DNA of 64,000 bases from Stappia sp. Lineage in GTDB: Bacteria > Pseudomonadota > Alphaproteobacteria > Rhizobiales > Stappiaceae. The first letter of the stretch is position 1; each line of letters starts with the position of its first letter. Positions 12,230 through 39,676 of this stretch are shown here, one piece after another. The notes under the pieces were generated by a model. It was not told the DNA's origin, did no database searches, and saw only the letters and a list, made by a program, of their open reading frames with translations. Location of the stretch: positions 84,365 to 148,364 of the forward strand of contig PBLF01000012.1 of assembly GCA_002722295.1 (NCBI GenBank), read 5' to 3'. Both the position numbers and the translations under genes were made by a program.

Positions 12230-12300
12230 AGCGAATTTAACAAATTCCGTCGAATATTAGTTAACCGGGACTGAAACCGGAGTCCCGCCCGCAGCCAACG

Positions 12301-12317: not shown

Positions 12318-12352
12318 GCAGCCGATCCGGCGCGCCCCGCAAGCGAGGTTCG

Positions 12353-13066: not shown

Positions 13067-13103
13067 GCATCCCCCCTTCGTTTCCGTGTGCTTCGCGTTC
13101 GCC

Positions 13104-14339: not shown

Positions 14340-14410
14340 ACTGGCTTGCCGGGCGATCCGCGTTTGTTGCGGCCGTCCCGCCCCTTGTCCTCGTTCCGTT
14401 CGAGGGAAAA

Positions 14411-24339: not shown

Positions 24340-24597
24340 ATGTCGAGTACCGAAGCAATCCGCGAGATTCTCGCAAGCCACGGCAAGCTGCCCGTCGATG
24401 TGGCGAGCCTTGCCGATGATGCCGACCTTTACGCAGCCGGCCTGTCGTCCTTCGCCTCGGTCCAGCTCATGCTGGCTATCGAGGACCGCTTCGACATCGA
24501 GTTCCCGGAAAACCGGCTGAACCGCAAGACCTTCGCCTCCATCGCGGCGATCAGCACCGCGGTCGACGAGATCACGGCGGCGCAAAGGGCGGCATGA
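24340..24597 (+). CDS. Stand-alone carrier protein (ACP/PCP-like), partner of the aminoacyl ligase
   Basis: 85-residue acidic four-helix carrier protein. Seen: DADLYAAGLSSFASVQLML, where Ser37 occupies the 4'-phosphopantetheine site; the usual Asp-Ser-Leu is here Ser-Ser-Phe. The second half reads IEDRFDIEFPENRLNRKTF, typical of carrier proteins. GGAGGG lies five bases before the ATG. In Bradyrhizobium a small carrier protein of this kind (bll0956) receives an amino acid from the neighbouring aaRS-like ligase (Mocibob and colleagues); the same gene is two positions downstream here. It should be activated by a PPTase encoded elsewhere. Its stop overlaps the dehydrogenase start as ATGA. Confidence 0.88.
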   Translation: MSSTEAIREILASHGKLPVDVASLADDADLYAAGLSSFASVQLMLAIEDRFDIEFPENRLNRKTFASIAAISTAVDEITAAQRAA

Positions 24598-25778
24598 TGA
24601 ACGTGCACGCCTCGCCCGCGACCCGGGATCTCGGCGCCCGGATGCGCCGCGTGGCGGAAATCGCCGCCACCCATGCCGGCGACGTGGACGCCGCCGGCCG
24701 GTTCCCGCGCGAGGCGGTGCAGGCTTTGCGGGACGAACGTCTGCTCGGGGCCCACATTCCGGTCGCCCTTGGCGGTGACGGCGCCAGCGTCGGCGAGATC
24801 GCGGCGCTGTGCACCCAGCTCGGCCATGCCTGTTCTTCCGCCGCGATGATCTTCGCCATGCACCAGATCAAGGCGTCGAGCCTCATCACCCATGGCGAGG
24901 ACAACCCCTGGCATCGCGGCTTCATGGAACGCATCGCGCGTGAACAGCTTCTGCTGGCCTCCGCCACCACCGAAGGCGGAATCGGCGGCAACCTGCGCAA
25001 CTCGATCTGCGCCATCGAGGTCGACGGCGACACCTGCCGGCTCGAGAAGGACGCCACCGTCATCTCCTACGGCGATGAGGCGGACGCGATCCTGATCACC
25101 TCGCGCGCGCATGGCGACGCGGCACCCTCCGACCAGGTCATGACCGTCTTCCTGAAGGGCCAGTACACGCTCGAGAAGACCCATGACTGGGACACGCTCG
25201 GTATGCGCGGCACATGCTCGGACGGCTTCCTGTTCAAGGGCGAGGCTCCGGCGGAACAGATCCTGCCCAAACCCTTCGCCGAGATCGCCGCACAGTCGAT
25301 GCTCGCCTATTCGCACATCCTGTGGAGCGCGCTGTGGTACGGCATCGCTGCCGACGCCTTTTCCCGCGCCCAGGCCTTCGTGCGGGCCGCCGCGCGACGC
25401 TCGCCGGGCTCGACGCCTCCCGGCGCCCTGCGCCTGGCCGAGGCCTCCAGCCTGCTTCAGGGAGTCAAGGGCAGCGTGGTCGCGGCCATCGAGCAGTACG
25501 AGCGCGCCCGCGCCGACGACGACGCCCTCTCCTCGATGAGCTTCGCCGTGGCCATGAACAACCTCAAGGTCGCAAGCTCGCAGACGATCCTCACGATCAT
25601 CAACCACTGCATGCTGATCTGCGGGATCCTCGGCTACAAGAACGGCACTCCCTACAGCCTGGGTCGCCACCTTCGTGACGCGCATTCCGCGCAGCTCATG
25701 ATTTCCAACGACCGCATCCTCGGCAACACGTCGACGATGCTGCTGGTCCACAAGCAGGACACGAGCCTTTTCGGCTGA
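24594..25778 (+). CDS. Acyl-CoA-dehydrogenase-like flavoprotein acting on carrier-bound substrate (predicted)
   Basis: 394-residue protein of the acyl-CoA dehydrogenase fold. Seen: N-terminal helical domain ([34 protein letters not shown]), middle beta domain with [19 protein letters not shown] in place of the usual FAD-binding block, and a C-terminal helical domain ending [22 protein letters not shown]. The family's usual YEGT glutamate region is replaced by NDRILGNTS, so the normal catalytic base is not evident. Placement between a carrier protein and an amino acid:CP ligase recalls prolyl-S-PCP dehydrogenases (PltE, RedW), which oxidise carrier-bound amino acids. Substrate is inference. 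Tandem ATGs at 24594 and 24597 overlap the carrier-protein stop. Confidence 0.85.
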
Positions 25779-25791
25779 GGGAGGGGAAACG

Positions 25792-26703
25792 ATGGACATG
25801 CAGACAAGTCTTCTCGACCGGCTCTTCGACGCCGGGCACCTGATCGATACCGGCATCGACGGCCTCTATGGCCGTGGCGGCGGCTTCGAGGCGGTCATCA
25901 CCGGCTTCGAACGCCTCATCGACGCCCATGCGCCAGCCGACGCGAAGCCGGAGGTGATCCGCTTCCCGCCGGGCATGAACCGGGCCCACTTCGAGGGATC
26001 CGGCTACATGAAGAGCTTCCCGCAGCTTGCTGGAACCGTGCACAGCTTCTGCGGCTGCGAGCTGGACCACATGAACCTGCTGCAGTGCATGGCCGAAGGC
26101 GAAGACTGGACCCAGGGCCAGCAGGCGACCGACGTCGTCCTGACGCCGGCGGCCTGCTATCCGCTCTATCCGGTGATCGCCAGGCGTGGCCCCCTGCCCG
26201 AGGGCGGTGGGCTGTTCGACCTTCAGTCCTATTGCTTCCGGCACGAGCCGTCCAAGGACCCGGCGCGCATGCAGCTCTTCCGGATGCGCGAGTTCGTGCG
26301 CATGGGAACGCCCGAGGACGTGATGGCCTTCCGCGCCGACTGGATGGAGCGCGGTCAGAAGCTGATCGAGGCGGTGGGCCTGGACCCCGAGCTCGACACG
26401 GCCAATGACCCCTTCTTCGGCCGCGCCGGCAAGATGATGGGCAACAGCCAGCGCGAGCAGAAGCTCAAGTTCGAGCTTCTCATCCCCGTGACCTCACAGG
26501 CCAACAAGACCGCCTGCCTGAGCTTCAACTACCACCAGGACCACTTCGGCCACACCTGGGGTCTCTCCACCGCGGACGGCGAGACGGCGCACACGGCGTG
26601 TGTCGGCTTCGGCCTGGAACGTATCGCGCTGGCGCTGTTTGCAAGGCACGGTCTCGACACGGACGCCTGGCCCGCTTCCATCCGTGAAGCGCTCTGGGGC
26701 TGA
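25792..26703 (+). CDS. Amino acid:[carrier protein] ligase (class II aaRS-like)
   Basis: 303-residue homologue of the catalytic core of atypical seryl-tRNA synthetase that loads an amino acid onto a carrier protein rather than tRNA. Seen: class II motif 2 as [20 protein letters not shown] and motif 3 as [12 protein letters not shown]. The zinc ligands known from Bradyrhizobium Bll0957 (Cys131, Glu176, Cys279 as I recall) map at a constant offset of nine to Cys122, Glu167 and Cys270. The tRNA-binding N-terminal arm of SerRS is absent, as in the family. Bll0957 prefers glycine and a related enzyme alanine; which is used here cannot be read. Cotranscribed with the carrier protein, dehydrogenase, DUF1839 and GH2 genes. 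Confidence 0.93.
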
Positions 26704-26707
26704 GACC

Positions 26708-27700
26708 ATGTTCGACCGTCTCGCAAGCCTGTCGCCGGACGGCTACCGGCCGCATGCCCTTCATGCGGCGGAGCGCATCTGGCCCGAGACCAACTGCTAT
26801 GTGGATCTGTGGATCGAGGTCCTGTCGGCGCTCGGACTGGAACCGCGTGCCATGCTCGGCTTCACGCTTTCTCAGGATTTCGAGGGCGACCAGTTCACCT
26901 TCTTCAAGGTGCCGCTCGAGGACCTGGAACGGCTCTACGGCATCCGCGCAACCGAGCTCGCGGTCTATGACCCGGTCGAGAGCCACGTGGCCATGCAGAT
27001 CGCGCGCGGCCGCCTTTGTCTCGTGGAGGTGGACAGCTTCTTCCTGCCCGACACGCAAGGGGTGGGCTACCGGAGCGAACACGGCAAGACGACGGTGGCG
27101 ATCACCGCGCTCGATGCCGGGGCGCGTACGCTTTCCTACTTCCACAATGGCGGTTTCTTCTCCCTCTCGGGTGAGGATTTCGACGGTGTTTTCCAGCGCG
27201 GCGAACACGCGCAGCCGCTTCCGTTCCTGCCCTATACGGAGTTCGCGAAGTTTCCAGACAAGGCGCCGCAAACGGACTTGCACGAAATCGCCCTAGATCT
27301 CCTTGCCCGCCATTTCGCGCGCCGCCCGGCGGAGAACCCATTCCGCCCCTACAAGGCCGTCTTCGAGGGACAGATCGAGGTACTCGCCGAGCGCCCGTTC
27401 GACGTGTTTCACAAATACGCGTTCAATACACTGCGCCAGGCAGGCGCCAACTTCGAGCTGGCCGCGACCCATCTTCAGTGGCTTGCACCCGACGGCTCCC
27501 TGGAACGCGCCTCCTCGGAGGCGCTCCGCATCGCGGAGACCTGCAAGACACTCCAGTTTCAGCTCGCTCGCGCACTGGCGCGACGGCGTTTTGCCGGGCT
27601 CGGTGACGCTCTCGAACCTGCCGCGGGAGCCTGGGACGCGCTGATGGAAAACGTGGGCGAGCGGCTCGCGAAATCCGGCCATCACGACGCGGCGGCGTGA
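26708..27700 (+). CDS. DUF1839 protein, possible BtrH-like aminoacyltransferase
   Basis: 330-residue DUF1839 protein of unproven function, starting four bases after the ligase stop. Seen: TNCYVDLWIEVLSALGL with Cys30, LGFTLSQDFEGDQFTFF, CLVEVDSFFLPDT, a following His125 in RSEHGKTT, and FHNGGFFSLSGEDFDGVF. The order Cys, 'vevDsffLPd', His, then a hairpin resembles the BtrH N-terminal domain, a papain-like fold that moves an acyl group from a carrier protein to an amine in butirosin synthesis. That relation is my inference from pattern, not a search. The C-terminal half (about 190-330) is alpha-helical. Translation is probably coupled to the ligase gene. Confidence 0.8.
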   Translation: MFDRLASLSPDGYRPHALHAAERIWPETNCYVDLWIEVLSALGLEPRAMLGFTLSQDFEGDQFTFFKVPLEDLERLYGIRATELAVYDPVESHVAMQIARGRLCLVEVDSFFLPDTQGVGYRSEHGKTTVAITALDAGARTLSYFHNGGFFSLSGEDFDGVFQRGEHAQPLPFLPYTEFAKFPDKAPQTDLHEIALDLLARHFARRPAENPFRPYKAVFEGQIEVLAERPFDVFHKYAFNTLRQAGANFELAATHLQWLAPDGSLERASSEALRIAETCKTLQFQLARALARRRFAGLGDALEPAAGAWDALMENVGERLAKSGHHDAAA

Positions 27701-27719
27701 TCCGTCCGGGAGGGGTTTC

Positions 27720-30212
27720 ATGATCGACGCGGCGACGCTCGACGGCAGCGCGGACCTTCTTCGCGATGCGGAGTGGGAACTTGCGCTCACGCCGGCCGGC
27801 CTTGCCTCGGCCCCGCGCGAGCTATCCGGGGAAACCGGATGGATCGCGGCACAGGTGCCGGGAACAGCGGCCGAGGCACTGGAACGGGCCGGACGCTTCG
27901 ACCGTGACGCACCGCTGCCCCTGCACGATCAGGACGTCTGGTACCGCGCAAGGTTGCCGGTGCCCGCAAACGGGCCTTGCCGTCTTGTCGCCGAAGGCCT
28001 CGCCACGATCTGCGAGGCCTGGCTAGACAACGAACCCCTTCTCATCTCGAGCAGCATGTACGCCCGCCAGGAGATCGCCATCGACCTCGAGCGGGCGGAA
28101 GAAATCCACCTGTGCTTCCGCGCGCTGCGTCCGCATCTGAAGATGCCTGGCCCCCGTGCGCGCTGGAAGACGAAACTCGTGAACGAACCCGGCCTGCGGC
28201 TCGTACGCACCACCTTCCTCGGCCACATGCCGGGATGGTGTCCCGAGGTTCATGCGGTGGGCCCCTGGCGCCCGCTGCATCTTGTCCCCGAAAGCGCTGT
28301 GCGTCTGGAAGACCTGAGCGTGACGGCAACGCTCGACGCGGAGGGAACCGGACACCTGACGGTCCGTCTGGTTCCGGGACCGGACCTTGCTGGGGCAAAG
28401 GGTCTGCGCATCACCTGCGCCGGGCACGAGGCGGATCTTTCAAAGGCAGGCGACGAAGACGGGCTCGAGGCCCATCTGACGCTTCCAGGCGTCGCCCCCT
28501 GGTGGCCGCACACGCACGGCACGCCCGCCCTTCACGAGGTGCGGCTCGCCGGCGACGGCATCGACCTTTCCCTGTGCCGGACCGGGTTCCGGCGCATCGA
28601 GGTCGATCACGGACCGGACGGCGCGGGGTTTTCGCTGCGCATCAATGGATCGCCGGTGTTCTGTCGCGGGGCCGTGTGGACGAGCGCGGACATCGTCTCG
28701 CTTCCCGGCACACGGGACGCCTATGCGCCCTGGCTGACGCTTGCCCGCGATGCCAACATGAACATGCTGCGCATCGGCGGAACCATGGCCCCCGAGGCGC
28801 GCGCCTTCTTCGAGCTTTGCGACGAACTCGGCCTGCTCGTCTGGCAGGACCTGCCCTTTGCGAACCTCGACTATCCGGCAAGCGATCCGGACTTCGCCGA
28901 AGCCGTCCGGCGGGAGACCCGCGAAATCCTGGCAGGAACCTCGTTCTGCCCGTCACTTGCCATCATCTGTGGCGGCAGCGAGATGCACCAGCAGGGCGCG
29001 ATGATGGGCCTGCCCGAAAGCCGGTGGAACGGCCCGCTAACGCGGGAGATCCTGCCCGAAGCCGCCGCCTCTGTTCGCCCGGACGTGCCCTATGTTCCAA
29101 ACTCCCCGTCCGGCGAGGGCCTGCCGTTCCTGCCGGGAAACGGCATCGCGCACTATTACGGCGTCGGCGCATACCGCCGACCGCTGGAGGACACACGGCG
29201 GGCGAACGTCCGGTTTGCCGGCGAATGCCTTGCCTTTTCCAATGTGCCGGAGACCGGAGCCCCGATGGGCCCCGAGGGTGCCCCCTGTCATCATCCGGAC
29301 TGGAAGCGCGGCGTGCCGCGCGACCGGGATGTCGGATGGGATTTCGAGGACGTGCGCGATCACTACGTGCGCGACCTTTACCGGGTCGACCCGCTCGATC
29401 TGCGGTATGGCGATCCTGCGTCCTATCTCGACCACGGCCGGGCGGCCGTCGCGGAGGTGATGGAAGCGACCTTCGCCGAATGGCGGCGGCCTGCCTCTTC
29501 CTGCGCGGGAGCCCTGGTGTGGACCTTCCAGGACCTGATGCCGGGCGCCGGCTGGGGCATCGTCTCCTGTGACGGCACGCCGAAGTCGGCGCTCTACGCA
29601 CTGAAGCGTGCCTTCGCGCCCTTGCGCATCTCGACAACGGACGAAGGGACAAACGGCCTTGCCGTGCATGTGGCCAACGACGGGCCCGCTCCGCGCAGGG
29701 TGAAGCTTGCGTTGCGCTGCCTGGCACGCAACGGCATGGCCGTCGCCAGCGGAGAGCATGTTCTGGACATGGCCCCGCATGGCTCGAGAAGCCTTTGGGC
29801 AACCGATCTCATCGGCGCGTTCTTCGACGTGACCCATGCCTACAGGTTCGGCCCCGCCTCGCACGACTGCGTGCATGTGGCGATGCTGGACGCGGAAACA
29901 GGCGAGCGCCTCGACGAAGCCTTCCATTTCCCGCTCGGGCGCAGCCGGGCGATGTCCCCGGCGGATCTGTCCGTCACGCCAGAGCGGGACGAGGCGGGTC
30001 ACACGGTGTTGCGGATTGCCGCGGACAGGGTCGCCCAGAGCGTGGCGATCGACGCGCCCGGATACCTTCCGCAAGACAACTGGTTTCACCTGGCGCCCGG
30101 CTGCGAACGCCTTGTGCGCCTCGTAGCACGTGAGGAAATGCCCGCAAGCGCAGGCCCGTCGGGAAGCGTGCGGGCGCTCAACGCAGCGCCAACGGGCTTT
30201 TCCGCCGGCTGA
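27720..30212 (+). CDS. Glycoside hydrolase family 2, beta-mannosidase-like
   Basis: 830-residue GH2-type enzyme without a signal peptide, so cytoplasmic as it stands. Seen: N-terminal sugar-binding-like domain (DQDVWYRARLPVP, EAWLDNEPLL), the Ig-like middle domain, and a TIM barrel with NMLRIGGTMAPEARAFFELCDELGLLVWQDLPFA, all typical of beta-mannosidases. The acid/base is probably Glu421 in CGGSE (usual CGGNE), and Glu502 in FAGECLAFS is a candidate nucleophile. The normal SEFG context of the nucleophile is altered, so the catalytic assignment is uncertain. It begins 19 bases after DUF1839 and ends the plus-strand cassette. A role in trimming or transferring sugars of the linked polysaccharide is inferred. 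Confidence 0.85.
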   Translation: MIDAATLDGSADLLRDAEWELALTPAGLASAPRELSGETGWIAAQVPGTAAEALERAGRFDRDAPLPLHDQDVWYRARLPVPANGPCRLVAEGLATICEAWLDNEPLLISSSMYARQEIAIDLERAEEIHLCFRALRPHLKMPGPRARWKTKLVNEPGLRLVRTTFLGHMPGWCPEVHAVGPWRPLHLVPESAVRLEDLSVTATLDAEGTGHLTVRLVPGPDLAGAKGLRITCAGHEADLSKAGDEDGLEAHLTLPGVAPWWPHTHGTPALHEVRLAGDGIDLSLCRTGFRRIEVDHGPDGAGFSLRINGSPVFCRGAVWTSADIVSLPGTRDAYAPWLTLARDANMNMLRIGGTMAPEARAFFELCDELGLLVWQDLPFANLDYPASDPDFAEAVRRETREILAGTSFCPSLAIICGGSEMHQQGAMMGLPESRWNGPLTREILPEAAASVRPDVPYVPNSPSGEGLPFLPGNGIAHYYGVGAYRRPLEDTRRANVRFAGECLAFSNVPETGAPMGPEGAPCHHPDWKRGVPRDRDVGWDFEDVRDHYVRDLYRVDPLDLRYGDPASYLDHGRAAVAEVMEATFAEWRRPASSCAGALVWTFQDLMPGAGWGIVSCDGTPKSALYALKRAFAPLRISTTDEGTNGLAVHVANDGPAPRRVKLALRCLARNGMAVASGEHVLDMAPHGSRSLWATDLIGAFFDVTHAYRFGPASHDCVHVAMLDAETGERLDEAFHFPLGRSRAMSPADLSVTPERDEAGHTVLRIAADRVAQSVAIDAPGYLPQDNWFHLAPGCERLVRLVAREEMPASAGPSGSVRALNAAPTGFSAG

Positions 30213-30282: not shown

Positions 30283-32109
30283 CTACTCGGCCGCCTCGGC
30301 GCTGATGCCGTGCGGCGCGGGTCGTGCGATCTGTCGCAGGCGCGCGAATACAGGCTCCCGGTCAGCGGCCCGCGTCAGACTGTGGTCCGCACCGGGAAGC
30401 ATCTTCACGTCGACGTTACGATAGGCGGCCAGTCCGGAACGGGACCTGCCGAAAAACAGGTCGAGCTGGGCGAGCCCAGGATCTCCCTCGCTGTAGACGA
30501 GATCGACCGGAACGCCACGTGCCGCCAGCCCCTCAAGGCCCCGATGCACACGCCGATAGAGTCGCGAGAAGGGAGACAGACCGAAGAGCCAGGGCGCGCT
30601 CGCCCGCTCAACGCCACGAAGGCCGCGACGCATGACCTCTCCCAGGATCGCGCCGGCCGCGACCTGCCCCGACAGGAGACGGCGGAGTTTCCCACGGTCC
30701 AGAAGCTTGTATCCGTAGTCGCGCGTCGCGACGTTGCCGAGCCTGAGGATGCGACCGACATCGTCGCGCGCATCCCAGAGAAACCGCTGCAGGTTGATCG
30801 CGACGACATGGGCAATGCGGGTGTCGGCCATGGCACCGTTGAGGGCCAGATAGGCGCCGCCACAGGACCCCGCGACGATCACCTGCGACCCCGGCACGAA
30901 ACGCTGGCACAGGTCCAGCGCGGCGAAGAGCTCCTCCGTCTGCCCCGACCAGTAGTGAACGGTGGAAGGGGCGCCTGAGCGCGCGCGACTGTCTCCAACG
31001 TCGGCCAGGTCGAAACGCAGGGAGGCAATGCCCTCCTCGCTTGCAAGCCGGCGCGCCATCTGCGCGGTGCCGCGCGCCCACCCCGCGCGCGGATTGCCGC
31101 CCGCCCCCAGGAAGACCACTGGATGCGACACGCCGAACCGGGGCGCCCGGGGCGTGCACCATACGCCGACAAGGGCCTCTTCGGGGCCGAAGACGACAAG
31201 CTGCTCACGCCATCCGTTCCCCTCCAGAACCGCGACTTCGGAGGGGGAGGAAAGCGCGGGCAGCACCTGGACGCGGCTCTCCTGCTCCCGCAGGACAACC
31301 CGGTGCACCAGCGCCTCGACGCGGGAGAACGCGTCCTCCGGCGGCAGGGAAAGGGTCGGGTCCGCGACCGCCGCGTCGAAGGCCTCGAACAGGCCGGCCT
31401 CGCAGTCGGGACGCCCGGCAAAGGCATCGGCGAAAGCCTCTTCCGCCGCCACGCCCGGACGGGCAAGCGCGAGCACGGGAAGGTCCTGGCGCACCTCTCC
31501 GGCGTCGAGTTTCACGCCGCGGATTTCCGCAGCAAGAGGGTCGGAAATCGCAAGACCGGCAACCGCGAGGGCGGCGCCCTCGGCCGCAACCGGCGGCGAT
31601 CCGGTCATGTCGCCGATCATCGCCGCGCGCATTTGCCACTCCCGAAGCGTGCTGCGACCGCTGACCATGGGGGCGAGAAGCGCAAGGCCGGCCGCCTCGA
31701 GCGGGTTTTCAGCCGCCCAGCGCACGGCCAGAAAGGCGCCGATACCGACACCGGCGACAACGACACGCTGCACGCCGGTTTCGGCCATCAGTTCGAGGCA
31801 GGCGGCGCGAAGCGTCTCCGCAAGGCGGTCGATGCCCGTTACGGCCAGGGCGTCATCGGCGGAATCCCCCGTGCCCGGCTGGTCGTAGCGCAACACGGGA
31901 ACACCCTGACCGGCCAGCCTGTCAGCGAGCAGACGCATGGGGCGGCGCAGGGACAATGCGTCGTAGCCAAGCGGATCGGCGATCACCACGCCGACCGGTC
32001 CGGGATCGCCGGAAGGCCGGTGCAGAAGCGCGAATGTTCCCGCGACCGCCAGAGGGCGAAGGGGAGGAAGCGCGCCGGACGATGCGGCAAGAACGGGCTT
32101 TCCGGCCAT
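30283..32109 (-). CDS. Tandem alpha/beta-hydrolase protein, first domain lacking its nucleophile
   Basis: 608-residue cytoplasmic protein with two alpha/beta-hydrolase modules. Domain 1 (about 20-250) has the strand-order blocks VVIADPLGYD, VLRYDQPGTGDS and an elbow reading AGVGIGAF, where the nucleophile of GxSxG is Gly122. Domain 2 (about 300-590) has FLGAGGNPRAGWARG, LRFDLADVGDS, an elbow AGSCGGAY with Cys416 as nucleophile, and the late His in LPGADHSLT. It resembles exosortase- or polysaccharide-associated hydrolases. A Cys elbow fits a dienelactone-hydrolase-like or acyltransferase chemistry. The ATG at 32109 overlaps the GH5 stop, so it ends the leftward EPS operon. Confidence 0.75.
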   Translation of the reverse strand: MAGKPVLAASSGALPPLRPLAVAGTFALLHRPSGDPGPVGVVIADPLGYDALSLRRPMRLLADRLAGQGVPVLRYDQPGTGDSADDALAVTGIDRLAETLRAACLELMAETGVQRVVVAGVGIGAFLAVRWAAENPLEAAGLALLAPMVSGRSTLREWQMRAAMIGDMTGSPPVAAEGAALAVAGLAISDPLAAEIRGVKLDAGEVRQDLPVLALARPGVAAEEAFADAFAGRPDCEAGLFEAFDAAVADPTLSLPPEDAFSRVEALVHRVVLREQESRVQVLPALSSPSEVAVLEGNGWREQLVVFGPEEALVGVWCTPRAPRFGVSHPVVFLGAGGNPRAGWARGTAQMARRLASEEGIASLRFDLADVGDSRARSGAPSTVHYWSGQTEELFAALDLCQRFVPGSQVIVAGSCGGAYLALNGAMADTRIAHVVAINLQRFLWDARDDVGRILRLGNVATRDYGYKLLDRGKLRRLLSGQVAAGAILGEVMRRGLRGVERASAPWLFGLSPFSRLYRRVHRGLEGLAARGVPVDLVYSEGDPGLAQLDLFFGRSRSGLAAYRNVDVKMLPGADHSLTRAADREPVFARLRQIARPAPHGISAEAAE

Positions 32110-33167
32110 CAGCGTCGCTCCAGCGCCTTGCAGGATTTTTCCTCCGGCCGCGTGCGCGGAATGAAGCGCTCGATCGCGGTGAGCTGGGGCCGGTCCCCGT
32201 TCTCGTTCGGCTGAATGGACAGAGGATAGTCGCCCCACCAGTCGCCGGCGGCCCAGATCGACCAGCCAAGCCAGATGTCGGGCCGGGAATTGAGATACCC
32301 GACGACGCGGGCAAGCCCGCGATAGCAATCGGGTCGCGCGTATCCGCCGAACTCGCCGAGGAAGGCGCGATTGCCCGTCTCCTCCATCCAGGCGGTAACC
32401 CGCTTCAAGGCCTCCATGGCTTCCTCGACCTTGTTGCAGGCCGGTTTGGTGCCGGAGTAGTCGTCATCGAGATACTGGTGAATGTCGAAGCCGAAGTGGT
32501 TCATCGGGTCGACGACACCACGCATGACCTCGGCGTTGGAGCCGCCCGGCTGGTCCGCGTACCAGTGCACGGCCGCCGTCCAGATCGTGCCTGCGACCAG
32601 AACGAAATTGTCCGCACCCGTCTCGCGGATCGCGGCGAGTGCCGCGTTGTTGGCCGGAAGCCAGTCCTTGGCGTCGATATAGGCCGGCTCGTTCATGACC
32701 AGATAGATCACGTCGTCACGGCCGGCCCAAAGCGGGGCGAGCCGACGCCAGAAATCGGCGAAGGAGGACAGCGGAACCCGCCTGGAACCGACAAGATCGT
32801 CGAAGTGCTTGGCGAAGTTGCTCGGGTCCAGCACCACCGTCATGCCGAGGTCGGTGATGGTTTTCACCGTGTCGGTAAGGCGCTTGAGCTCCACGGGATC
32901 GAAGGGCGCGTCGAGCTTCGGCTGCAGCCGTTCCCAGCGAAACGGCAGGCGCACCACGTTCATGCCCTTGGAGCGCAGGTAGGCGAGCGTCTTCGCGGAG
33001 GGATACGTGTAGTCGCGTCCGAAGACACCGGGAATATTGTAGCCGAACTCGGCCCCCGCCGCGTTGGCGCCACGCAGGCACTCCGCGGCGGCCACGGGCT
33101 GGGCAAGGGAGAGGAGCGCGGCAAGGACAAGGGCGCCGCCCCTTAGGACCGGTTCAGGAAGACCCAT
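32109..33167 (-). CDS. Secreted glycoside hydrolase family 5 (endoglucanase-like)
   Basis: 352-residue secreted GH5 enzyme. Seen: signal peptide with cleavage near VAA|AEC, then ECLRGANAAGAEFG, KGMNVVRLPFRWERLQP, acid/base Glu150 in YLVMNEPAY, FDIHQYLD, and nucleophile Glu262 in FLGEFGGYA. All GH5 landmarks are intact. GH5 covers endoglucanases and other beta-glycanases; in polysaccharide loci such enzymes usually trim or release the polymer in the periplasm. It overlaps the flippase 3' end by 14 bases and the hydrolase start by one codon, all in one leftward transcript. Confidence 0.9.
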   Translation of the reverse strand: MGLPEPVLRGGALVLAALLSLAQPVAAAECLRGANAAGAEFGYNIPGVFGRDYTYPSAKTLAYLRSKGMNVVRLPFRWERLQPKLDAPFDPVELKRLTDTVKTITDLGMTVVLDPSNFAKHFDDLVGSRRVPLSSFADFWRRLAPLWAGRDDVIYLVMNEPAYIDAKDWLPANNAALAAIRETGADNFVLVAGTIWTAAVHWYADQPGGSNAEVMRGVVDPMNHFGFDIHQYLDDDYSGTKPACNKVEEAMEALKRVTAWMEETGNRAFLGEFGGYARPDCYRGLARVVGYLNSRPDIWLGWSIWAAGDWWGDYPLSIQPNENGDRPQLTAIERFIPRTRPEEKSCKALERR

Positions 33168-34566
33168 TTTCCCCACTCCCTCCCGTGGCGGGCACGGGCC
33201 GCTCCATGCCCCCCGGTTCGTCGCCGGTCTCGCGGGCACGCTTGTCGTGCCAGCGCAGGGCCAGGAAGGCCGTCGCCGCGCAATCCACCTTCCAGTGACG
33301 GATCGTCCAGTACCGCGAGACAAGGTGCAGCGCGAGAAGCTGGCCCAGGCCGGCAATCGCCACGCCTTCGGGACCGAACTGGCTGCCGAGCCCGAACAGC
33401 AGGGCCAGGTAGACGACGAAGATCACGCTGCGGATCCTGAGCAGGTAGCCCTCGCCGCCGCCGATCATCATCAGCCACGTGCCGGGACCGAAGAATGCGT
33501 GGGCGATCGCGCCGACCGAGAGAAGCACCAGCACCGGAAAGTGTTCGACGAAGGCGTCATCGAACAGATGCAGCACGAAAGGTCCGACGAAGAAGAGGCC
33601 GACGCCGCCGATCAGGGCAAGCACGAAACTGCCGGCGGAGAGCATCGCCACAAGGCTCTGTGCGCCATCGTGGTCCTTCTCCTGGAACTTTGCGGAGATG
33701 AGCGGGACGCCGACCGTGTCGATCGCCAGAACGGGCAGGATCAGCAGGGAGGCGATGCGGTTGGCGACGAAGTAGAAGGCGGCGATGTCGAGGCCGATCG
33801 CGATGCCGATCAGGATCGTCTCGAGATAGAGCGCCGCCGCCTGGAAGAACCCGTTGGCGGAGAAGTTCAGCGTCTCGTTGCGCCAGACCCGCTCCGGAAC
33901 GTCCTCGCGCGCGCCGTGTGAGCGCAGGAAGCCCAGTCCCTCGGCCGCCACGAAATGCACCGCCTGATAGCCGACCATGATCGCGAGCAGCCCCGCCACG
34001 AGTTCCGCCGCCGCCGCACCGCTCGTGACCCAGCCCCCCCAGGCAAGACCGACCAGCGCCAGCGAACACAGCAGCCGCCACAGGTTTTCGCGCGGCATGA
34101 GCGCCAGAACGATGCGCCCGAACACGAGGAAATATCCCTGAAGATACTCGCTGAGCGTGAAGATCGCACCGAAAACGAGCGCGATCTCCAAATGGTCGTA
34201 GGGGGCCGGAAGCCCCTCGCCGAAGGTCCAGAGGAGCGCTGCCGCCAGAAGCTGTCCACCGCAGCCAAGCAGCAGCCAGAGACTGTTGTAGAACAGGATC
34301 CCCTGATTGGTGCGGCCGGGTTCGTGGTTCTGCAGGCGGAAGTGCTTCACCAGCAGCACCTGCTGGCCGAAGACGCAGATCAGGCCGAGAGAGGATCCGA
34401 CCGAGAACAGAAAGATGTAGAGGCCGTATTCGTCCGTCTCCAGCGCATGGCTGGCGGCGAAAAGCAGCGCAAAACTCAGAATCGTGCTGCTGCCGCGACT
34501 GAGAAGCGACCAGAACAGCTTGCGGAATCCGCGACCGGCCACGATGGTCCGGATGCGTTCGATCAT
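33154..34566 (-). CDS. Wzx-type polysaccharide flippase
   Basis: 470-residue integral membrane protein with about 12 hydrophobic segments, matching the polysaccharide flippase (MOP) superfamily. Seen: FWSLLSRGSSTILSFALLFAASHAL near the N-terminus, FANRIA-like NRIASLLILPVLAIDTVGVP, and GPGTWLMMIGGGE in the later half. It should translocate lipid-linked sugar units across the inner membrane. The C-terminus is a charged cytoplasmic tail. The ATG at 34566 overlaps the preceding glycosyltransferase stop; the gene's 3' end overlaps the GH5 start. Confidence 0.88.
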   Translation of the reverse strand: MIERIRTIVAGRGFRKLFWSLLSRGSSTILSFALLFAASHALETDEYGLYIFLFSVGSSLGLICVFGQQVLLVKHFRLQNHEPGRTNQGILFYNSLWLLLGCGGQLLAAALLWTFGEGLPAPYDHLEIALVFGAIFTLSEYLQGYFLVFGRIVLALMPRENLWRLLCSLALVGLAWGGWVTSGAAAAELVAGLLAIMVGYQAVHFVAAEGLGFLRSHGAREDVPERVWRNETLNFSANGFFQAAALYLETILIGIAIGLDIAAFYFVANRIASLLILPVLAIDTVGVPLISAKFQEKDHDGAQSLVAMLSAGSFVLALIGGVGLFFVGPFVLHLFDDAFVEHFPVLVLLSVGAIAHAFFGPGTWLMMIGGGEGYLLRIRSVIFVVYLALLFGLGSQFGPEGVAIAGLGQLLALHLVSRYWTIRHWKVDCAATAFLALRWHDKRARETGDEPGGMERPVPATGGSGENGSS

Positions 34567-35795
34567 GATGCCAGTCCTTCGCGCTCTCCGCTGCCGCGCC
34601 GGGCGGATGCCTGGTTCACGGCGAGCCGGAGGAGCTCGGTGTATTGGGAGGCCACCCTGTCCCACCGATAGGCATCGGTCGAGGCAAGTGCCCCGCGTGA
34701 CAGGGTTTCGTAGAGCACCTGGTCCCCGGCGACCCGGGTGATGCATTCGGCAAGCGCCGCGTCATCGGCGACGGGGAACAGGAAGCCGTTATCGCCCGGC
34801 CGTATCGTCTCGGCAATGCCTCCAAGATCGGAGCCGATCACGGGCACGCCGTGTCCGAAGGCCTCGATCGCGACGCGGCCGAAAGCCTCGCGACCGACCG
34901 AGGGAAAGACGAGCAGGTCGATCTGCGGAAAGAACTCCTCCGGCTGGCTCCAGCCAAGGAACCGGGTACGCTCGCGCGGGAAGTCCTGCCGCTGGATGTC
35001 CTCCTCGCCGGGCTTGCCGGTTCCGGCGATGACATATTCCACCGACGGATCGCCCTCGAGACGGCGCGCGGCACGGCCCAGGACGTCCAGTCCCTTGAAC
35101 GGGCGGTGCACCCCGATAAAGCCGATGCGGAAAGGCCGGTCCCGCGGCATGGAGCGCGGCGCGGAGGCAATCTCGCCGTCGATCACGCCGGGAATGCAGC
35201 GTGTCGCCGCCTGGGGGAAATATCCCTCGTCCACGTGTCGCTCGATCACGCCCTGCGTCTCGCCGCAGACCGCGTCCACATAGCGCGAGAAGAAGCGCTT
35301 GCCGAGCGAGGAGACCATGCAACTCACGCAGCGCGGGTCGCAGTTGCGGCCGTTCTTCTGCATCACGCTGCGCCAGCACAGCAGGAAGGCATTGCGCAGG
35401 GTATGCGCCACGGGAACGCCCATGGACCGCGCCGCCGCCCATGAAGCGACGTTGATGTTCTCGATGCTGTCGGTCAGCAGCACGTCGGGGCGATATTCGG
35501 CGATTTCGCGACGCATGGCGGCATGGGCGCGCGGATTGCCGTTCTCGAGGATGTGCCAGACCCCCTTCTTCCACACGGGACGGCCGGGCTTCCAGTAGTT
35601 CCAGTCGATGTTGAGCGTTGGAACGCGGTGCACCTCGAGCCCCTCATAGGTCTCGCGAACGTCCTCGTCCCCCACCGTCATGATACGCAACTCGTGCCCC
35701 TCTCCCACGAGCATCCGCGCGACGAGAAGCGCGGAAACGGGCGCGCCGCCTTCGAAATGTGGAGGAAAGGCCCCGCAGGCCATGAGAATGCGCAT
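34563..35795 (-). CDS. Glycosyltransferase family 4
   Basis: 410-residue GT-B glycosyltransferase of the GT4 type, retaining, cytoplasmic or membrane-associated. Seen: N-terminal acceptor domain MRILMACGAFPPHFEGGAP, nucleotide-sugar domain starting FRIGFIGVHRPFKGLDVL, and the EX7E region SVGREAFGRVAIEAFGHGVPVIGSDLGG. An unusual cysteine-rich insert CDPRCVSCM (around residues 160-170) recurs in some GT4 enzymes of EPS loci. The frame is open slightly upstream, but the fold begins at the ATG at 35795. First gene of the leftward operon GT4-flippase-GH5-hydrolase. Confidence 0.9.
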   Translation of the reverse strand: MRILMACGAFPPHFEGGAPVSALLVARMLVGEGHELRIMTVGDEDVRETYEGLEVHRVPTLNIDWNYWKPGRPVWKKGVWHILENGNPRAHAAMRREIAEYRPDVLLTDSIENINVASWAAARSMGVPVAHTLRNAFLLCWRSVMQKNGRNCDPRCVSCMVSSLGKRFFSRYVDAVCGETQGVIERHVDEGYFPQAATRCIPGVIDGEIASAPRSMPRDRPFRIGFIGVHRPFKGLDVLGRAARRLEGDPSVEYVIAGTGKPGEEDIQRQDFPRERTRFLGWSQPEEFFPQIDLLVFPSVGREAFGRVAIEAFGHGVPVIGSDLGGIAETIRPGDNGFLFPVADDAALAECITRVAGDQVLYETLSRGALASTDAYRWDRVASQYTELLRLAVNQASARRGSGEREGLAS

Positions 35796-36177
35796 CAGTC
35801 GGAACGGATCCCTTGTCCGAGGTCGGCCCTGCAGGGCACACCGGAGTGTCACGGGTCAGGTCGCGCCAGCCCCGCTTCCGGTGTCTCGCCCAGCAGTCAA
35901 AACCCTAGGGTGTGAATGTTAATTCGCAGTATTTGAACAATGCCCATGACGCGAACGCCCCCGAAAAGCAACAGGATCGGTGAACAGGGTCTTGATGGGA
36001 TACACTCGGGCGGCCCGGACCGGCCCCGTTTCGCGTCGCCTTCGGGCATGAGCGTCATCTGGCAACCTGACGTTCATAAGCAGCGGATAAGACTTGGCTG
36101 GCGCGGCCGCTACGGATCCGCGCGGCAACTCTGGAGACGCAGGGGCCGACAGGCAGGAAACGGGGCGGGAAAAGAAC
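35796..36177. other. Divergent promoter region inside the EPS locus
   Basis: About 380 bases between two divergent EPS operons. I see no protein gene. The stretch around 35905-35945 (TGTGAATGTTAATTCGCAGTATTTGAAC) is clearly AT-richer than its surroundings and is the best place for promoter elements. No convincing operator repeat was found. Confidence 0.5.
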
Positions 36178-37272
36178 TTGGCGGATCTTACCGAAGGCAG
36201 AGATATTCATCCCGGCCCCACGGTGCGCGAGCGCATCAGATCCCTCGTGCTCTCTACGGGCCTCAGGACGCTGAACTGGACCGGGCTCTCGCGCCTTGTC
36301 GGACGGCGCTATCGCGGCCGCGGCACCATCCTCATGTTTCACGATTTCGTGAAAAGCCGGGAGGGTACGCTCGACCAGGGCTGCGAGATCTCCGTGCTCG
36401 ACACGCTGCTTGCCCGCCTGCGCGCGGAGGGGCGCGACATCGTCACACTCGACGAGGGACTGACGCGACTTTCGGGAGACAACCCGCGTCCCTTCGTGGT
36501 CCTCACCTTCGACGATGGCTACCGCTCCAATCGCGATCTCGCCTTGCCCGTCCTCGAACGCCACGAGGCGCCTGCGACGATCTATGTTCCCACCGGCTCG
36601 ATGGACGGTTCGCTCAATGCGTGGTGGCTGGGTCTTCTCGCGCTTTTCCGCGACCGCGAGGCGGTCGACTTCGAGCCGATGAACACCCGTTTCCAGTGCC
36701 CCGACACCGCCTCGAAGATCTGGGGCTTGCGCCGCGCGACGGCCTGGGTCTGGCAGAATTTCCGGCGCTCGGAGCAACTCGGGCCGTTGTTCGCCGCAAA
36801 CGACGTCTGCGTGCCGGACCTGGTGCGGGACACGTTCCTGCGCACCGACGAGGTGCGCGAGCTCGACAAGCATCCGCTGGTGTCGATCGGGGCCCATACC
36901 CGCACCCACCGGGCGCTGGGCCTGCTGAAGCGCGAGGACGCGGTGGCGGACATCGCCGGAAACAAGGCCGACCTCGAGACCCTGCTCCAGCGCGAGGTGC
37001 CGCATTTCGCCTATCCCTACGGCCCGCCCTCGATCACCGGCACGCGCGAGGCGAAGTGGCTCGCCGAAATCGGGTTCACCAGCGCGGTCACGACGACACC
37101 CGGCTGCCTGTTTCCCGGACACCGCAAGTCGCCGATGCTGCTCCCGCGCCAGAATGCGGAATCCCCCGAGGACGGCCACCATCTCGCCCTGTGCGGCGTC
37201 GAGGGCGTGATCCGGGCTCTTTCGGCACGTGGCGGCGACCCGGTCGCGCGTCCTGGAGGCTTGCACGCATGA
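36178..37272 (+). CDS. Polysaccharide deacetylase (NodB homology domain)
   Basis: 364-residue carbohydrate esterase family 4 protein. Seen: LTFDDGYRSN (catalytic Asp pair), APATIYVPTG, GAHTRTHRALG (two metal histidines), FAYPYGPPS and late NAESPEDGHHLALCG. A helical insert (residues about 170-260) separates the motifs, as in polysaccharide-locus deacetylases. There is no signal peptide, so it may deacetylate a lipid-linked precursor in the cytoplasm. No ATG fits: the TTG at 36178 after GGGAAAAG is chosen, with another TTG at 36094 possible. The stop overlaps the next gene as ATGA. Confidence 0.85.
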   Translation: MADLTEGRDIHPGPTVRERIRSLVLSTGLRTLNWTGLSRLVGRRYRGRGTILMFHDFVKSREGTLDQGCEISVLDTLLARLRAEGRDIVTLDEGLTRLSGDNPRPFVVLTFDDGYRSNRDLALPVLERHEAPATIYVPTGSMDGSLNAWWLGLLALFRDREAVDFEPMNTRFQCPDTASKIWGLRRATAWVWQNFRRSEQLGPLFAANDVCVPDLVRDTFLRTDEVRELDKHPLVSIGAHTRTHRALGLLKREDAVADIAGNKADLETLLQREVPHFAYPYGPPSITGTREAKWLAEIGFTSAVTTTPGCLFPGHRKSPMLLPRQNAESPEDGHHLALCGVEGVIRALSARGGDPVARPGGLHA

Positions 37273-38417
37273 AGGACGTTTCCTCCCTCCATCTCGTGCA
37301 TGTCGTACGGCAGTACCGGCCGAGCATCGGCGGGCTCGAGGATTTCGTGGCAAGCCTTGCCGCACGCCAGCGCGACCGTTTCGCGCGGGTGACCGTCGTC
37401 ACCTGCGACCGCGTCTTTCGCGGCGGGGACGGCACGCGTCTTCCGGCCCGCGAAACCATCGAGGGAATCGAGGTCGTGCGCCTGCCCTCGCATCTCTCGA
37501 CCCGCTACCCGGTCACGCCCGGCGTCTTCTCCGCGATCCGGGGAGCGGATCTGGTCCATGTCCACGCCATAGACTTCTTCTTCGACGCGCTGGCCTTCGC
37601 CCGTCCGTTTCAGGGCATCCCGCTTGTTGCCACGACCCACGGCGGGTTCTTTCACAGCGGAAATGCCGGCGGATTGAAGACACTCTGGTTCAACACCCTG
37701 ACCCGCCTTTCAGCCATGGCCTATCGGGGGCTGGCCTGCTGCAGCCAGAGCGACTACGAGCGCTTCGCGACCATCGCACCCGGGACCGTGCGCCTGATCG
37801 AGAACGGCGTGGACCTGGAGAAACTCGGCGATGCGGGCTCGCGCAAGCCGACCCGCTCCATCGTCACAATCGGCCGGCTCTCGACCAACAAGCGGATAGA
37901 CCGGTTGATCGACGCCATGGCCGAACTGGCCCCGCGTCATCCGGACTGGCGTCTCGACATCATCGGAACACCCTTCGACTGGAGCGCGCAGGACGTGCGC
38001 GCGATGATCGCCCGACATGGGCTCGAGGACCGTGTCGCCCTTCATGTCAGGCCGAGCGACGCGGACATGCGCGCACTGCTGGGTCAGGCCAGCCTGTTCG
38101 CCAGCGCCTCGGTCTACGAAGGCTTCGGCATTGCCCTGATCGAGGCCATGAGCGCCGGACTTGTTCCGGTGGTGGAGGCGAACGCCGCCTTCACGGCCTT
38201 CGCCGCACGTCATGAGGGGATCCGGCTCACGGGGTATTCGGACGCGGTCGTGGCGGCGGATGCACTCGAGGCCGCCCATGCGGGCCTGCAACACGCGCCC
38301 GAGGCCACGCGGGAGGCAATGATGGCCGTCGCGGCCGGCTATTCGTGGGAAAGCACGGCGAAGCGCTACGAGGATTTCTACAGCGGGGCACTCAGCCGCG
38401 AGGCCGCACCGCGATAG
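37269..38417 (+). CDS. Glycosyltransferase family 4
   Basis: 382-residue GT-B enzyme. Seen: LVHVVRQYRPSIGGLEDFVASLA at the start, DLVHVHAIDFFFD, ATTHGGFFH, the donor domain IVTIGRLSTNKRIDRLIDAM and the EX7E region ASVYEGFGIALIEAMSAGLVPV. It is a complete, standard GT4. The ATG at 37269 overlaps the deacetylase stop by four bases, so they are coupled. Its 3' end overlaps the convergent polymerase gene by 40 bases, which means the two transcripts share an antisense segment. Confidence 0.92.
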   Translation: MKDVSSLHLVHVVRQYRPSIGGLEDFVASLAARQRDRFARVTVVTCDRVFRGGDGTRLPARETIEGIEVVRLPSHLSTRYPVTPGVFSAIRGADLVHVHAIDFFFDALAFARPFQGIPLVATTHGGFFHSGNAGGLKTLWFNTLTRLSAMAYRGLACCSQSDYERFATIAPGTVRLIENGVDLEKLGDAGSRKPTRSIVTIGRLSTNKRIDRLIDAMAELAPRHPDWRLDIIGTPFDWSAQDVRAMIARHGLEDRVALHVRPSDADMRALLGQASLFASASVYEGFGIALIEAMSAGLVPVVEANAAFTAFAARHEGIRLTGYSDAVVAADALEAAHAGLQHAPEATREAMMAVAAGYSWESTAKRYEDFYSGALSREAAPR

Positions 38418-39676
38418 GTGCCGCGAACGGAAAAGCCCGCCCACACGTCCACAGCGCCCGCACAGAACCACAGGATCGCCGCCGTCTTGATCGAGTAGAA
38501 CGAGCTCGAGACGATCATCAGCAGGCAGATGTAGGTAACCAGCGGGGCGCGAAACCGCCAGGCATCCTGCGAGCGCACGGGACCGAAGATATAAAGCCCC
38601 CACAGCGCGCCGGCTCCGAGAATGCCGAACTGGTGCAGCGAATAGGCGTATCCGTTGTCCTCGAGGAACGGCGTTACCGGTGACATTCCGAACAGCCCCC
38701 ATCCGTCGAGGCTGAGCAGGATCCACGATGCGTGCAGCCAGCGGCCGGCAAGGTTGTCTTCCCAGTACACCGCGTTGGTCGACAGGCCGTAGATCGCCAT
38801 CGCGACGGTGATCAACGCCGGGATCAGGAACCAGACCACACGGGGGATCAGACGGGAAAACGGGAGCACGGCCACGAGCGCGAAACACACCATCATCCCG
38901 AACCGGGCATCGCCCATGATGATGACCACGACAGCGGCCGCGGCCAGCCAGAGCCGGTGGGACATGTCCTTGCGAAACATCGCCCACAGCGCGAGGAACG
39001 CGCCGAAATTGCCCATCGCCACGGGCTCCAGGAAGACCGAGGAGACACGATGCGGCCCGAGGAAGGGGAGCAGGTTGCGGCCCTGGAAGCGTGTGCCGCT
39101 GATGAACAGGGAGGAATCGCCCATGCCCTTGTCGCCCACGTCGAGCGAGCCGCGCGCAATATAGTATTTCAGCACGTTGACGTTGGCGATGAAGGCGTCG
39201 AGCAGGAAATACTCGAACAGTCCGATCATCACGACGATGCCGGCACAAGCGAGCACGACCCGGTCCACATCCTCGATGCGACGCATCTTGCGGCCGAGAA
39301 AATAGAAGGCGATCGGGATCAATCCGTCACGGATCGCCTTGAGGTCGAGCTCGGGGCGCAGCGACAGGATCAGCAGCATGTAGGCGAGATAGACCGCCAG
39401 AAGCGTGTAGAGCCCGGCACGCCTGTCCACCGCCAGCACAAGCGTTGCCGAGATCAGCACCAGTTCCGCGAGCATCACAAGGTTCTGCGACACGCCGAAA
39501 AGGCGGGTGTTCACGAAGGCAAGCAGGAAGTTGAAGACCACTGTGCCGACGACGACCATACCCGCGGCCAGCGTCCACATGTGATGGACATCCGGACGAC
39601 GAACGGCCGTGGGGCGCGAGGAGGGAAGTCGGCTCGCGGCCGGACGCGCCAGTGGGTCAGGCTGCCAGCGCGACAT
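38378..39676 (-). CDS. O-antigen ligase/polymerase-like membrane protein (Wzy type)
   Basis: 432-residue protein with about 11-12 membrane segments and a large periplasmic loop (SLFISGTRFQGRNLLPFLGPHRVSSVFLEP, residues about 190-225), the layout of Wzy polymerases. The conserved arginines of such loops are present, but the family is too variable for motif proof. Role: joining translocated repeat units in the periplasm. The ATG at 39676 overlaps the end of the GumC-like gene by 20 bases; an ATG at 39580, just before the first membrane segment, is an alternative. It is convergent with the GT4 gene. Confidence 0.8.
   Translation of the reverse strand: MSRWQPDPLARPAASRLPSSRPTAVRRPDVHHMWTLAAGMVVVGTVVFNFLLAFVNTRLFGVSQNLVMLAELVLISATLVLAVDRRAGLYTLLAVYLAYMLLILSLRPELDLKAIRDGLIPIAFYFLGRKMRRIEDVDRVVLACAGIVVMIGLFEYFLLDAFIANVNVLKYYIARGSLDVGDKGMGDSSLFISGTRFQGRNLLPFLGPHRVSSVFLEPVAMGNFGAFLALWAMFRKDMSHRLWLAAAAVVVIIMGDARFGMMVCFALVAVLPFSRLIPRVVWFLIPALITVAMAIYGLSTNAVYWEDNLAGRWLHASWILLSLDGWGLFGMSPVTPFLEDNGYAYSLHQFGILGAGALWGLYIFGPVRSQDAWRFRAPLVTYICLLMIVSSSFYSIKTAAILWFCAGAVDVWAGFSVRGTYRGAASRLSAPL

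Follow-up and report, generated by a model that had tools for sequence, protein, structure and literature searches.

A six-gene carrier-protein set next to an exopolysaccharide-type locus in Stappia: a candidate route from charged carrier protein to amino sugar

Where does the amino acid go after an amino acid:[carrier protein] ligase has loaded it? These enzymes, which resemble class II aminoacyl-tRNA synthetases (aaRS), were reported in 2010 to charge carrier proteins (via PMC2922099), and the passage devoted to them in a 2022 review still calls the role of this charging unknown (PMC9437257). A stretch of 64,000 nucleotides from Stappia sp. (assembly GCA_002722295.1, contig PBLF01000012.1, positions 84,365 to 148,364 of the forward strand; hereafter the window) carries such a ligase inside a cassette of five plus-strand genes at 24340-30212, which encode a carrier protein (CP), a flavoprotein with the fold of acyl-CoA dehydrogenases (ACAD), the ligase, a DUF1839 protein, and a GH2 glycosidase. 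We propose, at a probability of about one half, that the cassette is an exopolysaccharide (EPS) aminoacylation module, in which a carrier-bound, oxidised amino acid would be handed to the amine of an EPS precursor. The set of six genes formed with a neighboring alpha/beta-hydrolase-fold protein (ABH), having a CcbD-like amide former and a cysteine-bearing partner, suggests a destination for a class of ligases of unknown purpose and turns the open role of charging into a direct question: to which amine does the amino acid pass, and does it end up in the EPS?

The cassette is compact, as a preliminary description of this DNA had reported. The CP and flavoprotein genes overlap by 4 bases (ATGA), 13 bases separate the flavoprotein from the ligase, the DUF1839 ATG at 26708 lies 4 bases past the ligase stop, and 19 bases separate DUF1839 from GH2. 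That description had also seen in it a complete small assembly line without nonribosomal peptide synthetase (NRPS) modules. Family profile searches of the cassette proteins found no NRPS condensation or adenylation domains, which rules out peptide assembly of that type, so this part of the claim stands; completeness does not, since a sixth partner, ABH, had been overlooked. Its gene converges on the cassette directly beyond GH2.

Membership of ABH emerged from a comparison of 398 Pseudomonadota genomes. The ligase scored above its family cut-off in 28 of them (44 at E<=0.001; the 16 genomes below the cut-off were left uncounted, and tblastn found no CP or flavoprotein in the 5 of their loci that were fetched). 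DUF1839 was present in 16 genomes, all of which had the ligase, and in every one the five genes were adjacent (the window, and 15 by tblastn). At E<=1e-60, GH2 occurred in exactly these 16 genomes and in 0 of the 382 others, while ABH, at E<=1e-15, was present throughout the 16 and, outside them, in a single genome (G322). Fisher p values for association with DUF1839 were ~2e-21 (ligase), ~1e-27 (ABH), and ~7e-29 (GH2) by genome and ~1e-18 (ABH) and ~8e-20 (GH2) by genus; these values express association rather than independence, with kinship left out of the model. ABH lay no more than 20 kb from the cassette in 13 of the 16 genomes and on a separate contig in three (G107, G191, and G255); in G107 it was retained even though it sits ~24 kb from the nearer end of that other contig. 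Chance clustering was ruled out by the genome counts of ligase, DUF1839, GH2, and ABH together with the gene order. The preliminary description would have been refuted by co-occurrence confined to a few close relatives; instead the set spans Hyphomicrobiales, Azospirillum, and Burkholderiaceae.

Closer to the window, a genome scan confirmed at least 571 loci, and the best 80 (ligases 71-88% identical, nearly all from Hyphomicrobiales) were compared by tblastn. In all 80, the five genes followed one another on a single strand in the same order, and in 77 all five were intact, profile-matching frames, GH2 being incomplete in the other 3. The DUF1839 figure, 80/80, comes from a profile search of stop-to-stop frames (automatic frame extraction gave 74/80), and strict motif searches proved too narrow for GH2 (15/80) and CP (78/80), so alignment columns were used instead. 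When the loci were clustered, only the five genes and ABH exceeded 43 loci. As a separate observation, open reading frames (ORFs) that by eye resemble EpmB, EpmA, and an EF-P-containing protein appeared in 41, 43, and 38 clustered loci (L074:7357-8403, L131:1013-2188, and L068:5470-6876), and in L074 the EpmB-like frame stands directly upstream of CP. In the three loci with incomplete GH2 (L058, L084, and L120), its frame looks broken or cut near 12000-14500, covering 0.71, 0.26, and 0.44 of the profile, and the other four genes are full.

The loading step is where the window most resembles known systems. The pairing of an aaRS-type ligase with a carrier protein, noted earlier, was borne out, with both proteins above their family cut-offs (NF005479 and PRK07081). 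Conservation counts here and below pool several sources and refer to alignment rows rather than independent cases (at least one locus occurs twice, as L075 and G197:C23), with one copy per locus, clean frames only, and the Cys-less L154 copy excluded. C122, E152, and C270 of the ligase, aligned to columns that we take to be the zinc ligands of Bll0957, are kept in 118/118 rows, as the preliminary description had said of the window sequence. The CP serine S37, the phosphopantetheine site, is present in 107/107 rows, and the source genome has two genes of the phosphopantetheinyl transferase (PPTase) family.

The other 12 of the 28 ligase genomes hold loci that are taken to be of the Bll0957 type and are called B-type here. 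The window resembles the family of Bll0957 from Bradyrhizobium (PRK07080/NF005479) in its ligase and CP, which exceed the family cut-offs, and in the kept zinc positions; in both types of locus the flavoprotein adjoins the ligase (12/12 of the B-type). The B-type loci differ in that no DUF1839, GH2, or ABH was found within the 14-18 kb fetched around each of the 12, in that CP, where recognised, is sometimes on the opposite strand, and in their ligases, which form one branch with 100/100 support; a CP relative was found in 6/12 by tblastn and in 9/12 by clustering. A branch present in 74% of bootstrap trees set the ligases of DUF1839-type loci apart from the others, in a tree that is partly poorly resolved, has Priestia on a long branch, and leaves Bll0957 itself unplaced. 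The core of CP, flavoprotein, and ligase (41% identical) also occurs on a Priestia megaterium plasmid (NZ_CP085444.1; L002:10151-18698), where its neighbors are a holo-ACP (acyl carrier protein) synthase, an ATP-grasp enzyme of the L-amino-acid-ligase type, a thioesterase, an alanine racemase, and an alanine permease, with a D-Ala-D-Ala ligase upstream; this looks like a dipeptide antibiotic cluster. Because the core is present both in B-type loci and on this plasmid, it is portable. We infer that loading, thioesterase release, and dipeptide ligation would make sense in Priestia mainly if the amino acid were changed while on the carrier, and the arrangement therefore supports modification at that stage.

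Three other settings of such ligases were seen in passing. Two B-type loci of one genus (L134:5468-6343 and L135:12732-13841) have genes of the nucleoside phosphorylase and IF-2B/MtnA families beside CP, which suggests methionine salvage. On an Agrobacterium vitis F2/5 plasmid (L240:6094-9650), a distant relative of the aaRS-like ligase lies by a diiron oxygenase, a nitronate monooxygenase, a fluoroacetyl-CoA-thioesterase-like protein, and a PPTase. On an Apilactobacillus kunkeei plasmid (L242:7463-10111), the gene of a small PP-binding protein overlaps one for a distantly related aaRS-like protein, and two genes nearby are annotated as D-Ala-D-Ala ligase.

The flavoprotein is the obvious candidate for such a change, and the preliminary description had suggested oxidation on the carrier of the kind that PltE and RedW perform on prolyl thioesters. 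Oxidation on the carrier gains support from the tie between flavoprotein and ligase in the 12/12 B-type loci and in Priestia. The PltE/RedW analogy fared badly: the protein scores 28.6 bits against a cut-off of 650 for the RedW model NF045652, and glutamates at the two positions that we take, from medium-chain (MCAD) and isovaleryl-CoA (IVD) dehydrogenases, to be catalytic are missing in 12/12 cassette or B-type rows. PltE/RedW-type oxidation was accordingly dropped as the default, and oxidation in general was kept. The source genome has 14 further ACAD loci, of which the cassette profile picked up 10 for the alignment; 6 of these paralogues have the first Glu, 3 the second, and 1 neither (L259). 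H90 and H241 are invariant in 113/113 rows. The structural model, which is weaker than that of DUF1839 (pLDDT, the predicted local distance difference test, 80.9, with a poorly defined C-terminal tail), matches dehydrogenases and flavin monooxygenases, nitrososynthases included (KijD3, DnmZ, and MsuC), about equally. No flavin reductase lies within the five genes of the cassette. Iyer et al. favored oxygenation for the redox enzyme in their 2010 note in proof (PMC2922099), and we too regard it as more likely than PltE-type dehydrogenation.

For the transfer step, DUF1839 is the candidate. Its entry in a 2023 survey gives it a papain-like fold with an unusual site of Cys, Thr/Ser, and His (PMC10318531). 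In the literature searched, a single paper mentioned DUF1839. An AlphaFold2 model built from 52 sequences (pLDDT 90.8) gave 16 Foldseek matches in the PDB at E<=0.001, all of them AziU2/U3 (best E value 2e-8), CtaG (3e-8), or CcbD with and without its peptidyl carrier protein (2e-5 to 3e-4). CtaG acts in closthioamide amide formation, and AziU2/U3 act in aziridine formation. CcbD, in the lincosamide synthetase, moves carrier-bound proline first onto a cysteine and then onto an amino sugar, whose amine accepts it (PMC12945683). The lincosamide system (CcbD/LmbD), in the parts described there, thus resembles the proposed pathway in that a CP-bound amino acid is coupled to the amine of an amino sugar with no NRPS condensation domain involved, at a cysteine-protease-like site with a Cys nucleophile, and differs in using a stand-alone adenylation protein instead of an aaRS-like ligase. 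A link in sequence between DUF1839 and CcbD was sought by profile search and none was detected, so the predicted likeness to CcbD and CtaG is one of fold and setting rather than of membership. To our knowledge, lincosamide synthetase has no flavoprotein of the cassette type, GH2, or ABH. The fold match nevertheless supports the earlier suggestion that DUF1839 transfers the loaded amino acid, and judging from the model it is likely a transferase.

Its likely nucleophile is C30, given that this residue opens the first long helix of the model and given the published papain assignment; C30 is kept in 93/94 rows and in 80/80 near loci. Five Cupriavidus-type loci, namely three of the four Cupriavidus plasmid records plus G255 and G328, which belong to one genus, presumably Cupriavidus given the shared arrangement, bear on this assignment. 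Their cassette copies of DUF1839 have Arg (4) or Gln (1) at the C30 site, and Ser-Cys, Ser-Ala, or Ala-Cys replaces the Thr-Thr pair. A second DUF1839 copy, a few kilobases away on the opposite strand in 4 of these loci and on another contig in G255, keeps the Cys in 5/5, and in the four second copies that match the pattern, the pair is Thr-Thr in 3 and Thr-Ser in 1. Because the second copy keeps the Cys where the cassette copy has lost it, this lineage retains one Cys copy of DUF1839.

Papain-like folds serve carrier proteins elsewhere as well. According to the 2023 survey, butirosin BtrH stands for a papain-like family of acyl-carrier transferases (PMC10318531). In Priestia koreensis (L241), a BtrH-like papain-fold protein and a CP are the neighbors of a distant aaRS-like protein, which is 25% identical to the ligase of the window; the BtrH_N score, 28.6, is just under the cut-off of 29.7, and no flavoprotein or GH2 is annotated. 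We regard L241 as the same partnership with another branch of the papain fold.

ABH supplies a second candidate transferase. The protein is a fusion of two alpha/beta-hydrolase-fold domains whose halves are related, below cut-off, to the NCBIfam models for exosortase A 'hydrolase 1' and 'hydrolase 2'; with 91.7 bits against a TIGR03100 cut-off of 168.45, its sequence marks it as a relative rather than a member of that family. In 76/76 aligned twin proteins, domain 2 has Cys in the nucleophile elbow (G-x-C-x-G) together with conserved Asp and His, and the elbow of domain 1 is degenerate (Gly in 59, Arg in 13, and Ser in 4 of the 76). Cys also holds the nucleophile position in all 25 TIGR03100 proteins above cut-off in the 398-genome sample, a shared feature seen here and not a curated criterion of that model. 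Polyhydroxyalkanoate synthases are known to have Cys at this position, and by analogy it suggests acyl transfer rather than hydrolysis.

The relationship extends to gene context. Fourteen of the 25 above-cut-off exosortase-type loci were fetched, plus 2 below. In 8 of the 14 the hydrolase pair is immediately preceded by a CP, and an AMP-forming ligase occurs in the stretch in 10 of the 14. Exosortase A EPS loci thus share with the window a CP before two alpha/beta-hydrolase genes and the Cys in hydrolase 1. They differ in using an AMP-forming ligase in place of the aaRS-like enzyme, in having the two hydrolases as separate genes, and in lacking DUF1839 in 25/25 genomes. G322, the one genome with ABH outside the DUF1839 group, has neither ligase nor DUF1839; in a row it carries an adenylation domain (346 bits, cut-off 317), a PRK07081 CP, and ABH, with genes for Wzc and GDP-mannose 4,6-dehydratase nearby, which by sequence amounts to a different loader with the same CP and ABH. 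In clustering, 13 of 35 ABH-bearing stretches had a Wzz/Wzc-type protein. The open-licence literature searched contained no paper linking exosortase, acyl carrier protein, exopolysaccharide, hydrolase, and ligase. In G335 (L237:8795-17006), two separate ABH-like genes, one of which encodes a Cys elbow, are immediately preceded by a very long frame that matches the adenylation query.

These parallels allow a broader proposal, which we advance tentatively: EPS loci may share a CP-acylation module that ends in a Cys-nucleophile transferase of the alpha/beta-hydrolase fold, mislabelled as a hydrolase, and has an interchangeable loader, so as to form a cytosolic counterpart of Dlt. In Hyphomicrobiales and Burkholderiaceae, the loader would be the aaRS-like ligase, working with on-carrier flavin oxidation and an amide former like CcbD; in G322 it would be the stand-alone adenylation domain, and in exosortase A loci the AMP-forming ligase. 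If true, this would give amino acid:[carrier protein] ligases of this kind their destination.

The coupling of GH2 to DUF1839 in 16/16 genomes, with no GH2 of this type in the 382 others, indicates that it acts in the same pathway. It aligns with beta-mannosidases (127.5 bits to 2vjx), and E421 and E502, whose counterparts we take to be the catalytic residues of 2vjx, are present in 99/100 and 98/100 rows. Inspection by eye found no signal peptide in it. At one locus (L151:4999-6387, G324), a gene for a VpsR-type sigma-54 activator converges on the GH2 end of the cassette and hints at polysaccharide-type regulation.

Neither the cassette nor its proposed outcome is a new discovery, contrary to the earlier claim of novelty. 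A note in proof by Iyer et al. (2010) had already proposed for this neighborhood that a surface amino sugar receives an amino acid, Atu2574 serving as the amide ligase and the redox enzyme as modifier (PMC2922099). The neighborhood given there, like ours, comprises ligase, ACP, redox enzyme, conserved ORF, glycosidase, and saccharide genes; Atu2574 is presumably DUF1839, judging from the neighborhood. What the note itself does not give is a fold for the conserved ORF, a hydrolase partner, or a phyletic count. The present analysis adds to it the match of DUF1839 in fold, ABH with its Cys, the observation that the loader can differ, the connection with exosortase loci, the Cys-less cassette copies of the Cupriavidus-type loci, and the counts.

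From the gene set, its order and co-inheritance, the conserved catalytic residues, and the predicted folds, a pathway can be drawn whose chemical steps are all our reconstruction, as are the identity of the amino acid, how it is oxidised, what accepts it, and which of the two Cys enzymes acts first. As its family suggests, the aaRS-like ligase would use ATP to activate a small amino acid, by precedent glycine or alanine, and bind it through a thioester to the phosphopantetheine arm of CP. The flavoprotein would then oxidise the CP-bound amino acid, oxygenation at nitrogen or the alpha carbon being likelier than alpha,beta-dehydrogenation. Cys30 of DUF1839 may take the acyl group and pass it to an amine, most likely on an EPS precursor that is an amino sugar, in an amide-forming reaction like that of CcbD. 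ABH could form an acyl-Cys intermediate of its own, either for further transfer toward the polysaccharide or for editing of mis-loaded CP. GH2 would act on a cytosolic glycoside of the pathway, and its role is the least clear. If this is right, surface polysaccharides of rhizobia and their relatives bear an amino-acid-derived group, of which we know no report, and acyl transferases have been annotated in two families as hydrolases or as proteins of unknown function.

Several observations weigh against EPS aminoacylation. Neither the Rhizobium leguminosarum plasmid (L003) nor Caballeronia (L006) has an annotated EPS gene within ~12 kb of the cassette, the plasmid gene tables being incomplete. 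Among the 80 near loci, just 53 have ABH within the fetched stretch; a Wzz/Wzc-type neighbor is absent from 22 of the 35 ABH-bearing stretches; and of the 14 exosortase-type loci, 2 have their CP elsewhere in the stretch and 4 have no recognised CP. Nor would EPS decoration be expected to involve a cytosolic glycosidase. Normalised by query length, the DUF1839 model has moderate TM-scores (0.47-0.63) against CcbD, CtaG, and AziU2/U3, and the DUF1839 profile, run against PDB sequences, found no CcbD, CtaG, or AziU chain at E<=10, its lone match being the cysteine protease 5hu4 (E 0.07). In Cupriavidus-type loci, the Cys-less copy of L152 retains both conserved histidines, and 3 of the 5 Cys-less copies have Ser at the first Thr place; therefore the Cys-less site is not fully erased. 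The flavoprotein and ligase core also occurs in clusters without DUF1839, GH2, or ABH nearby, and therefore EPS cannot be its sole use. The source genome (G000) is a draft of moderate quality, 89% complete with 6.6% contamination.

Some of this would fit a small diffusible product, such as a lincosamide-like aminoacyl amino sugar or a signal, with the EPS genes of the window as mere neighbors and GH2 removing a protecting sugar. The Priestia megaterium core sits in an apparent dipeptide antibiotic cluster, the product of CcbD is itself a small molecule, and both the GH2 without a visible signal peptide and the lack of annotated EPS genes near the cassette in L003 and L006 point the same way. 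We nonetheless consider a diffusible product rather unlikely, since ABH accompanies the set in 16/16 genomes and has relatives beside Wzc (G322) and in exosortase-type loci, ABH in the window overlaps an EPS-type run, and no exporter or resistance gene is seen to be fixed with the set, only the five genes and ABH being found in >43 clustered loci. Decidedly less probable is a transfer of the unmodified amino acid to give an N-glycyl or N-alanyl sugar, the flavoprotein serving some other carrier- or CoA-bound substrate. N-aminoacyl amino sugars do occur in bacterial glycans, and in G322 the adenylation domain, CP, and ABH stand without a recognised family flavoprotein in the 19 kb fetched, yet the flavoprotein adjoins the ligase in DUF1839-type loci, in 12/12 B-type loci, and in Priestia, the last two without DUF1839 or GH2 nearby. 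That DUF1839 is a hydrolase or protease of glycans or cell wall is very unlikely: the papain-like fold, a survey passage proposing acyl-CoA-dependent processing of cell-wall glycans (PMC10318531), and the 5hu4 match are outweighed by the absence of a signal peptide by eye, the 16 fold matches that include no peptidases, and the place of DUF1839 beside CP and ligase in 16 genomes.

The setting in the window also speaks for EPS aminoacylation (Table 1). As far as its annotated domains tell, the cassette adjoins an EPS-type locus: a minus-strand run of GT4, Wzx-like, GH5, and ABH genes ends in ABH, whose likely start codon overlaps the GH5 stop by one base (TGATG), with further GT4, Wzz, and WecG/CpsF genes beyond.

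Table 1. Positions in the window of the cassette, its sixth partner, and the adjoining polysaccharide-type genes
Feature	Coordinates	Strand	Basis
CP, PRK07081 family, phosphopantetheine serine S37	24340..24597	+	PP-binding 37.2 bits; PRK07081 118.8 bits vs cut-off 72
ACAD-fold flavoprotein without the usual dehydrogenase bases	24594..25778	+	acyl-CoA dehydrogenase N and C domains above cut-off
Amino acid:[carrier protein] ligase, class II aaRS-like, Bll0957 family	25792..26703	+	NF005479 506.3 bits vs cut-off 357; 330.7 bits to 4h2w
DUF1839, papain-fold, predicted carrier-dependent aminoacyl amide transferase, likely nucleophile C30	26708..27700	+	PF08893 439 bits vs cut-off 22.5
GH2, beta-mannosidase-like	27720..30212	+	GH2 N2 domain 34.5 bits vs cut-off 27
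ABH, twin alpha/beta-hydrolase fold, sixth partner, probable acyl transferase	30283..32109	-	likely start 32109; ORF open to 32328
GH5, cellulase-like	32109..33356	-	PF00150 140.7 bits; shares one base with ABH
Wzx-like polysaccharide flippase	33154..34746	-	PF01943 20.2 bits, under its cut-off of 28.2
GT4 glycosyltransferase	34563..35852	-	PF13692 92.5 bits
GT4 glycosyltransferase (C-terminal part of ORF listed from 35940)	37170..38417	+	PF00534 81.1 bits
Wzz/GNVR polysaccharide chain-length protein	39657..41672	-	PF02706 47.5 bits
WecG/TagA/CpsF glycosyltransferase	41732..42778	+	PF03808 182.7 bits

Past the polysaccharide genes, the window continues with genes of cobalamin biosynthesis, CbiD-like and CobB/CobQ-like, at 43546-44955 (minus strand) and 45694-47037 (plus strand).

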